A DNA stretch of 64,000 nucleotides from Thermocoleostomius sinensis A174 (GTDB lineage: Bacteria > Cyanobacteriota > Cyanobacteriia > Elainellales > Elainellaceae): positions 1,837,026-1,901,025 of the forward strand of contig NZ_CP113797.1 of assembly GCF_026802175.1 (NCBI RefSeq), read 5' to 3'. Numbering within the stretch: the stretch's first letter is position 1; the number at the start of each line of letters is the position of its first letter. A model generated the notes under the pieces. The model saw only the letters and a list, made by a program, of their open reading frames with translations, was not told the DNA's origin and ran no database searches. Below are positions 16,404 to 49,879 of the stretch, in pieces. A program made the position numbers and the translations under genes.

Positions 16404-16616
16404 AGCGAAAACTCCTAGTTTCAGATGAGGAAACTAGAAGCCAAATTCGATCGCCGTTGCAGCAAGATCTGTCAGCCAGGAGAAGGGTATAATTTCTCCT
16501 AGCCTTAGACCGGGCTTGATCCGGTTTAAGGTTAGCTGGTTAGGGTCGTTGGTAGCTTCCCTAATCAGCGCCTAGAACTTAGCTTCTAGGGTTGACGTTG
16601 ATGCGATGACTACCTT
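16404..16616 (-). promoter_or_regulatory. Structured 5' leader A (candidate cis-regulatory RNA)
   Basis: Reading the minus strand, AAGGTAG at 16616-16610 is followed by five helices. P1 is CCTAGAA/TTCTAGG (16590-16584 / 16577-16571). P2 is GCTG/CAGC (16538-16535 with 16569-16566) and encloses P3 TTAGGG/CCCTAA. P4 is ACCGG/CCGGT with loop ATCAAGC (16525-16509). P5 is AGGAGAA/TTCTCCT (16500-16478). Then comes a hairpin CTAGTTTC/GAAACTAG (16437-16415) touching the ribosome site. The same order of elements and length exists at 49418-49630. Confidence 0.65.
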
Positions 16617-16623
16617 TGACAGA

Positions 16624-16654
16624 GAAAAAGATAGCCTCGATTCCTGAGGCTATC
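16624..16654 (-). terminator. Rho-independent terminator after the dihydropyrimidinase gene
   Basis: GATAGCCTC (16630-16638) and GAGGCTATC (16646-16654) form a perfect 9-bp stem with a 7-base loop. On the minus strand it is followed by TTTTTCTC. It sits 185 bases past the dihydropyrimidinase stop and immediately before leader A, so it insulates the two units. Confidence 0.85.
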
Positions 16655-49417: not shown

Positions 49418-49630
49418 AAGGTAGCCAATTTACCTAGAGACGAATTCTCTAGCGCTAGCTCAGGCGTTCACCGCCAAGTAAAACACCTGAACTAGCTGAC
49501 CTCAGACTGATAGAGCCAGTCCAAGGCTAGGGTGATTATATCGCCCTGTGCTTTCAGCTTGCGCTGTCTGAGTGGGTTGAGAGCGAGTCTCTAGGGTTTC
49601 TTCAACCCTAGAACAAACGAGGTTATTTTT
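49418..49630 (+). promoter_or_regulatory. Structured 5' leader B (candidate cis-regulatory RNA)
   Basis: AAGGTAG (49418-49424) is followed by P1 CTAGAGA/TCTCTAG (49434-49440 / 49446-49452) and P2 GCTAG/CTAGC (49454-49458 / 49492-49496) enclosing P3 TCAGG/CCTGA (49460-49464 / 49486-49490). Next come P4 GACTG/CAGTC with loop ATAGAGC (49505-49521), the block AAGGCTAGG, and P5 AGGGTGA/TCGCCCT (49529-49547) with loop TTATA. A hairpin CTAGGGTT/AACCCTAG (49591-49611) sits before the CGAGGT ribosome site. It matches leader A element by element and in total length. Confidence 0.65.
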
Positions 49631-49879
49631 ATGGCTGATAAATTGATTTATACCCCCGGATCTGACGATCGCCCCTATAGATCCGGCAGACGCAGCGTGC
49701 GAAATTTCCTGCTGGGTGCTCCAGAAGATGTGGCAGAGACGATCGCGGAGTTACACGTCAAACAATTTGCCGAAGCCAACCTGTGGTCACGATCGCTCAC
49801 CTTCCCCGAAATTCAGCGAGAATTCCTCTTGTAACCTGGTGAAGTGATGCGCGTCTACAAACGCTATGTCTCACGGTAG
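49631..49879 (+). pseudogene. Second copy of the leader-linked small protein, with in-frame TAA
   Basis: The frame gives 67 residues (MADKLIYTPGSDDRPYRSGR ... WSRSLTFPEIQREFLL) and then TAA at 49832-49834. The same frame continues PGEVMRVYKRYVSR to TAG at 49877-49879, exactly the conserved C-terminus of the intact copy (EPGEIMRIYKRYVDR). The two cysteines of the intact copy are absent. One base change has therefore removed the last 14 residues. Either the gene is decaying, or the short form works, or the stop is sometimes read through. Leader B in front of it is intact. Confidence 0.75.

Follow-up and report, generated by a model that had tools for sequence, protein, structure and literature searches.

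The genome of Thermocoleostomius sinensis A174 carries small genes preceded by similar structured leaders, which raises the question of which RNA is structured here, on which strand it folds and what it does. Two such leaders, copies A and B, lie in the window, the whole 64,000-nt stretch of contig NZ_CP113797.1 that was analysed; coordinates are window positions (Table 1). The original prediction was of a structured mRNA leader, not matched to several known riboswitches, ahead of an orphan protein. Both leaders are found where it placed them, each 213 nt long directly before an ATG, with the quoted stems. AAGGTAG is common to the two, each has a ribosome-site hairpin, and both are more stable than all 200 dinucleotide shuffles (z of −4.8 and −5.5). 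The equal length and the AAGGTAG hold for copies A and B and do not extend to a general rule, as other copies differ; some are of another length (L042 and the 73-aa type of genome G044). Our preferred reading of the sequence comparisons, to which we give a probability of roughly 0.7, is that a cis-encoded antisense RNA of ~72–78 nt with two hairpins would control the small gene, whose leader would switch between a long-range helix, P1, and a hairpin at the Shine–Dalgarno sequence.

Table 1. Positions of the leaders, predicted RNAs and reading frames of copies A and B in the window
Feature	Position	Strand	Basis
Copy A mRNA leader, 5′ of 81-aa ORF	16404..16616	-	sequence and folding
Copy A predicted antisense RNA, hairpins H1 and H2	16500..16571	+	-40.9 kcal/mol vs -27.5 sense; strand test
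Copy A antisense hairpin H1 (P4 as originally drawn plus UAGCC/GGUUA)	16500..16534	+	folding
Copy A hypervariable 7-nt loop, sense ATCAAGC	16514..16520	.	loop comparisons
Copy A antisense hairpin H2 (P2 and P3 as originally drawn)	16535..16569	+	folding
Copy A second variable loop, sense CTACCAA, antisense UUGGUAG	16549..16555	.	loop comparisons
Copy A antisense -10-like TATAAT (sense ATTATA)	16488..16493	+	motif count
Copy A long-range P1, 5′ strand (also in the local P1 originally drawn)	16582..16590	-	
Copy A long-range P1, 3′ strand (GCTTCTAG)	16434..16441	-	
Copy A hairpin adjoining Shine–Dalgarno, bases in common with P1 3′ strand	16412..16437	-	folding
Copy A 81-aa orphan protein P0001	16158..16403	-	
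Copy B mRNA leader	49418..49630	+	sequence and folding
Copy B predicted antisense RNA	49452..49529	-	-43.5 kcal/mol vs -25.9 sense
Copy B hypervariable 7-nt loop, sense ATAGAGC	49510..49516	.	
Copy B antisense -10-like TATAAT (sense ATTATA)	49535..49540	-	motif count
Copy B long-range P1, 5′ strand	49433..49441	+	
Copy B long-range P1, 3′ strand	49587..49595	+	
Copy B hairpin 5′ of start codon, overlapping P1 3′ strand	49591..49611	+	folding
Copy B ORF related to that of copy A, broken by in-frame TAA 49832-49834	49631..49879	+	

A recurrent element ahead of small proteins

A covariance model built from seven leaders (R1) matched the element ahead of distant protein relatives in other genera, and a segment of leader A also matched elsewhere in the genome, where the same element precedes a second, 66-aa protein subfamily. 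The proposal of a new structured RNA gains further copies with covariation (below): this genome has 27 in all, copies A and B included, along with one weak antisense match (model R2), and there are more across the class. With up to 28 candidates scored per genome, R2 (E ≤ 0.01) located the element across the class in 37 of 145 genomes, counting this one, and in 27 of 88 genera; a draw from the phylum with model R3 (E ≤ 0.001), for which just 10 candidates per genome were scored, gave 14 of 386 genomes and 9 of 143 genera. Full scoring of five positive genomes yielded 73, 46, 21, 7 and 4 matches. Both leaders fall within a large cyanobacterial family, as yet unnamed, with copy numbers in the tens in some genomes. 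Aligning all subfamilies jointly with MAFFT misplaced P2, and the models were not built from that alignment.

At gathering thresholds the window is without a match in Rfam 15 on either strand. Copies A and B gave chance matches alone (E of 1 or worse), and in 20 related loci nothing in Rfam matched the element on either strand; the rows returned for these loci are one chance match, a group II intron by L131 and two intron families that overlap. The group II intron match (57 bits, L131:90-166) lies ~220 nt upstream of the copy in genome G016. The original failure to match the element to riboswitches agrees with this lack of an Rfam match, and we found no description of this family in the open-access literature searched.

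The downstream protein had been taken for a lone orphan, but in this genome the element precedes a member of one protein family in 27 of 27 copies. Two of these genes are broken, that of copy B by a stop and that of L038 by a frameshift. In copy B the family C-terminus resumes in frame past the TAA, and the gene is probably a decayed copy; the L038 ORF copy (L038:2372-2620, own genome 4419871) is frameshifted mid-gene. At E ≤ 1e-11 this genome holds 13 matches to the 81-aa copy A protein, two of which are halves of one frameshifted copy; the protein is predicted to adopt a beta-alpha-beta fold (mean pLDDT 79). Foldseek returned no fold match at E ≤ 0.001, Pfam and NCBIfam no family at the limits used (best NCBIfam match TIGR01756, E 0.23, far below cut-off), PHROGs no family better than E 0.059 and the PDB sequence search nothing better than E 0.2; PADLOC gave no match for four proteins, and P0001 was not found in phage records. 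The toxin of a type I toxin–antitoxin system is a small, usually hydrophobic peptide. The protein here may be type I toxin-like, or it may limit the copies of a mobile module.

Two weak members of the protein family lie elsewhere in the genome (1474720-1474932 on the minus strand and 2627419-2627529 on the plus strand, genome positions), one with a sub-threshold element match nearby (E 0.25) and the other with none. Family proteins without a detected element also exist, for example on Nostocales plasmids; L107, L108 and L109 are such plasmid relatives (Trichormus, Scytonema, Nostoc), one of them near parG on a 27 kb plasmid. In G044 the element stands ahead of several ORF types that are unlike one another by eye (a 'MWTTFG' type and types of 116, 73 and ~108 residues). 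Elsewhere, single copies are followed by genes for a likely DNA methyltransferase (L088) and a coiled-coil-like protein (L154), both named from their translations. Each ORF type is paired, by eye, with its own element subfamily, which argues against recent exchange.

Strand preference of the helices

Compensatory changes in the stems had been read as selection on RNA structure, and the larger alignment bears this out. Across 85 distinct sequences, P2–P3–P4 contain 82.9% standard pairs (62.8% shuffled) and 384 double-change cells, in which both sides of a pair are altered (132 ± 15 shuffled), and score 0.493 for covariation against at most 0.092 for slid pairings, in an alignment that was fitted to the P2–P4 structure, and so favours it, and that includes one false row (L170:550-644). 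This row and a second false one (L179:1560-1633) were left out of the pair-type, P1, −10 and H2-loop/promoter counts.

The strand under selection is reflected in the intermediates between standard pairs: a functional sense fold passes through G.U, whereas a functional opposite strand leaves A.C on the sense strand. Non-Watson–Crick pairs of P2–P4, read on the sense strand, are A.C or C.A in 326 cases and G.U or U.G in 42 (150 rows), and the 51 non-redundant rows give 114 A.C against 16 G.U. The A.C excess is present in both orientations, and A.A (112) exceeds U.U (11). Of 150 unique cores, 143 fold to a lower energy as antisense; the means are −34.4 for antisense and −24.9 for sense, and the median advantage is 10 kcal/mol. 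The mean strand difference of −9.5 compares with −3.75 ± 4.1 for composition shuffles and −1.2 for neighbouring segments; composition accounts for part of the asymmetry in folding, and this asymmetry and the A.C count are not independent of each other. Folding and loop counts cover the copies in which P4 was placed by an automatic search that took its loop as 7 nt (91 of 139; 165 of 203 rows, 150 unique cores).

Because A.C pairs outnumber G.U and the antisense folding energy is lower, we take P2–P4 to be constrained on the antisense strand. Both the pair types and the folding place the conserved structure on the strand opposite the target, as antisense control predicts. The original drawing, in which the mRNA leader itself is the structured molecule, must be revised accordingly for P2–P4, which tolerate A.C on the sense strand and fold better as antisense. 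The conserved blocks described as unpaired also need redrawing, since on the opposite strand sense TAACC and GGCTA pair with each other and close hairpin H1 as GGUUA/UAGCC.

P1 follows the reverse pattern. This long-range helix closes the whole leader domain, and its counts of 176 G.U and 37 A.C, against 289 and 209 in mispaired controls, are of the sense type (86 helices kept out of 117 non-redundant copies). Its 3′ strand falls outside the predicted antisense RNA. The local hairpin originally drawn as P1 competes with the long-range helix, which had been missed. Hairpins of the P5 region (99 G.U to 49 A.C) and at the 3′ end (111 to 82) were counted without a mispaired control; among the helices tested, only the long-range P1 gives a clear sense-strand pattern against its control. 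The P1 3′ strand extends into sequence able to pair beside the Shine–Dalgarno, most clearly by eye in L239, and as this strand is common to the Shine–Dalgarno hairpin, P1 and the ribosome-site hairpin compete for bases.

The sense-type changes in P1 and its sharing of a strand with the Shine–Dalgarno hairpin could also describe a sense-strand riboswitch or translational leader, in which a P1-closed multi-helix aptamer sets the Shine–Dalgarno hairpin and the opposite strand is irrelevant; the presence of one element ahead of several dissimilar small ORFs in G044 fits this as well. Such a leader does not account for the A.C excess in P2–P4 or for the antisense folding advantage. A metabolite riboswitch would have a conserved sense-strand aptamer core, and P2–P4 are instead constrained on the opposite strand.

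A −10-like motif and hypervariable loops

A conserved sense AUUNUA/ANNNTA corresponds to a −10-like TANNNT on the opposite strand. The bottom-strand TANNNT is present in 161 of the 165 rows counted (out of 168), compared with 28% of shuffled windows, and 151 of the 161 lie 5–9 nt from a conserved GGCT-type block, before the predicted antisense 5′ end. Three fixed bases of the motif are imposed by the search pattern; the inner bases, which are free of it, are A-rich, and about half have T at −3 and about half G at −2 (logo of 151 rows, 71 representatives). A −35 element is not conserved (best matches 2.66 of 6, 2.73 shuffled), and a generic consensus promoter scan of copies A and B gave no promoter. 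No uniform antisense terminator was found: T-runs of at least five follow H2 in 24.5%, against 3.6% shuffled, in a test that overlaps the A-run of P1. Sense promoters were judged by eye. A terminator-like hairpin with a T-run (16625-16654, minus strand), kept in the six subfamily A copies, follows the likely sense promoter and precedes the leader.

We propose that the sense transcript begins upstream and carries the 5′ leader, and that the −10-like element inside the leader drives an antisense RNA of ~72–78 nt from the opposite strand. Two long hairpins would make up this RNA: H1, in which UAGCC/GGUUA closes P4, and H2, which comprises P2 and P3. It would be complementary to the central part of its own leader, with which it would probably begin to pair by loop–loop contact. 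The P1 3′ strand would have two alternative partners, the P1 5′ strand and the sequence beside the Shine–Dalgarno, and antisense pairing may shift this balance, or block or destabilise the mRNA. Loop diversification would let each antisense RNA act mainly on its own gene, like the incompatibility loops of ColE1-type plasmids, and we suggest that the loops diversify because tens of similar loci coexist in one cell.

The loops change fast between copies. In four paralogue groups (11, 6, 4 and 15 copies), whose pairs are not mutually independent, the fraction of differing sites is 0.50, 0.57, 0.29 and 0.58 in the P4 (H1) loop, compared with 0.145, 0.17, 0.11 and 0.32 for four-fold sites and 0, 0.046, 0 and 0.08 in the remaining core. 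The P3 (H2) loop differs at 26–40% of sites between near-identical paralogues. There are 127 distinct P4 loops among 150 unique cores, and the H1 and H2 loops reassort between copies by eye. Because the P4 loop changes faster between copies than four-fold sites do, a metabolite riboswitch is disfavoured; the TANNNT conserved on the other strand also weighs against a purely sense-strand leader, and we consider that explanation unlikely.

YUNR occurs in 82 of 119 antisense H2 loops (119 of the 168 rows); the sense strand has it in 44 and shuffled loops in 32. The YUNR U-turn motif is described as ubiquitous in a recognition loop of loop–loop antisense systems (PMC4485353). Complementarity of the P4 loop to the upstream 110 nt is depleted (21 5-mers against 44 ± 8), and the loop therefore seems to be kept free; the stretch from +180 to +420 is not depleted (114 against 98 ± 12, a slight excess that is not significant), and neither P4 loop self-complementarity nor kissing between the P3 region and the P4 loop within one molecule is in excess. 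By analogy with such systems, the loops may set the copy-specificity of antisense action. Both loops are identical within L063 and L065, within L069, L071 and L074, and within L007 and L037, so specificity is not absolute.

Other roles for the loops were also considered. As a guide to cis DNA, the P4 loop showed no consistent excess over permuted loops in its own flanks and transcript (7-, 6- and 5-mers in both orientations; the sole low value among 30 tests was p 0.03, for same-sense 6-mers). Readings of the 7-nt loops as tRNA anticodon mimics or as T-box-like were set aside without a formal test. Autoregulation, with the small protein binding its own leader and the RNA structure serving as the binding site, would explain why element and protein family are constantly paired in this genome, but dissimilar ORFs follow the same element elsewhere, and L053 and L054 encode identical proteins and carry different loops. 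We regard it as very improbable.

Probable mobility, integron integrases and known systems

Within subfamilies of this genome the copies share a unit of ~560 bp, from the promoter region to just beyond the ORF, between unrelated flanks. Six copies of the 66-aa type also have an integrase remnant in common farther upstream, and several pairs in genome G010 share another 200–300 nt downstream, so the ends of the unit are not uniform. Sequence of an integron integrase adjoins copies (TIGR02249, 347 bits, cut-off 265). This genome has nine integrase matches in six places, all of them no more than 1.5 kb from a copy; a random place would have a 1.3% chance of this. The six places probably go back to a single ancestor. 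Decayed integron-integrase genes lie 5′ of L063, L065, L069, L071, L074 and L075, several with a similar internal deletion. Integrase genes or fragments adjoin copies, in tandem or convergently, in genomes G007, G010, G011, G012, G022, G044, G051, G068, G101 and G148. The element is present in 9 of 18 regions around integrase genes or fragments, which is not a rate because many of the regions were chosen for adjacency already known. Integrases without an element beside them are three genes of G030, those of G002, G003 and G132, and one of G101. One integrase gene of G010 ends its contig, and in G137 a family ORF follows the integrase with no element detected. The family is probably mobile.

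The attC sites of integron cassettes fold from the bottom strand, and their R boxes read RYYYAAC and GTTRRRY. The element might accordingly be a single-stranded DNA recombination site for the integron integrase, folded from the bottom strand like attC, and not an RNA: integrase genes or remnants adjoin copies in several genomes, the modules are dispersed between unrelated flanks, and the bottom strand is the one under folding constraint in P2–P4. We judge this improbable, as the R-box pattern (AAC/GTT) is not conserved by eye and TAACC alternates with TGACC, P1 is biased to the sense strand, a recombination site does not predict a −10-like motif, and the three integrase genes of G030 stand without the element. 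The modules resemble integron gene cassettes in being small orphan ORFs near an integron integrase, but their structured element lies 5′ of the ORF, without attC boxes by eye, and they are scattered singly, apparently each with its own promoter (by eye).

Returning to the antisense reading, we put forward tentatively, at somewhat less than even odds, a wider picture of high-copy mobile chromosomal modules that spread at least partly with integron integrases. Each would have its own two-hairpin antisense RNA and small protein, and diversifying selection on the loops would keep tens of pairs orthogonal (27, 46 and 73 matches in three genomes). To our knowledge, the known examples of antisense control with specificity loops are mainly those of plasmids and of a few toxin–antitoxin families. 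Tens of similar antisense–target pairs with diverged loops, seemingly in one genome, would be a natural experiment on the evolution of RNA–RNA orthogonality. The reading also gives a testable label to unannotated cyanobacterial small-protein families and ties some of them to integron integrases. As a practical lesson, the count of A.C against G.U tells which strand of a structured leader is selected.

Type I toxin–antitoxin systems with paralogues, such as Ibs–Sib and Zor–Orz, are described as likewise pairing paralogous small genes with RNA antitoxins. These enterobacterial families have many fewer copies than the family here. The protein here is, in addition, predicted to be beta-alpha-beta and not a typical membrane peptide. 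In the OrzO work, as excerpted, a variable region sets target choice (PMC3919570).

Closer in phylogeny, the candidate type I system msoT1/msoA1 of Microcystis also joins a cyanobacterial small ORF to a cis antisense RNA (PMC12390103). It differs in encoding a 63-aa predicted membrane protein and in that the predicted target of msoA1 is the 3′ UTR together with the coding region's 3′ end, and the passages of that report cited here do not mention a hypervariable-loop family (PMC12390103). In Synechocystis PCC 6803, asRNA1 of pSYSA is a stem–loop antisense RNA that overlaps the mRNA of a small protein, ssr7036, and is likened in its description to ColE1 RNAI (PMC9978351); unlike the RNA proposed here, it is described as overlapping the coding sequence of a plasmid replication locus (PMC9978351). 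No homology to this system was found for either RNA or protein: the pSYSA stretch around ssr7036 does not match model R3 (best 3.6 bits) and Ssr7036 does not match the protein profile (−1.9 bits).

In ColE1 RNAI/RNAII, too, a structured leader is the target of a short antisense RNA with hairpins. ColE1 origins whose loops have diversified and that are compatible with the wild type are reported to be selectable, although in the same account loop divergence by itself is not sufficient for compatibility (PMC9458437). Here, by comparison, tens of chromosomal copies stand before protein-coding ORFs, with no Rfam match. The proposed control is of a kind already known from ColE1 RNAI, pSYSA asRNA1 and type I toxin–antitoxin systems; what is new is the copy number, the loop divergence among chromosomal paralogues and the integron-integrase neighbours.
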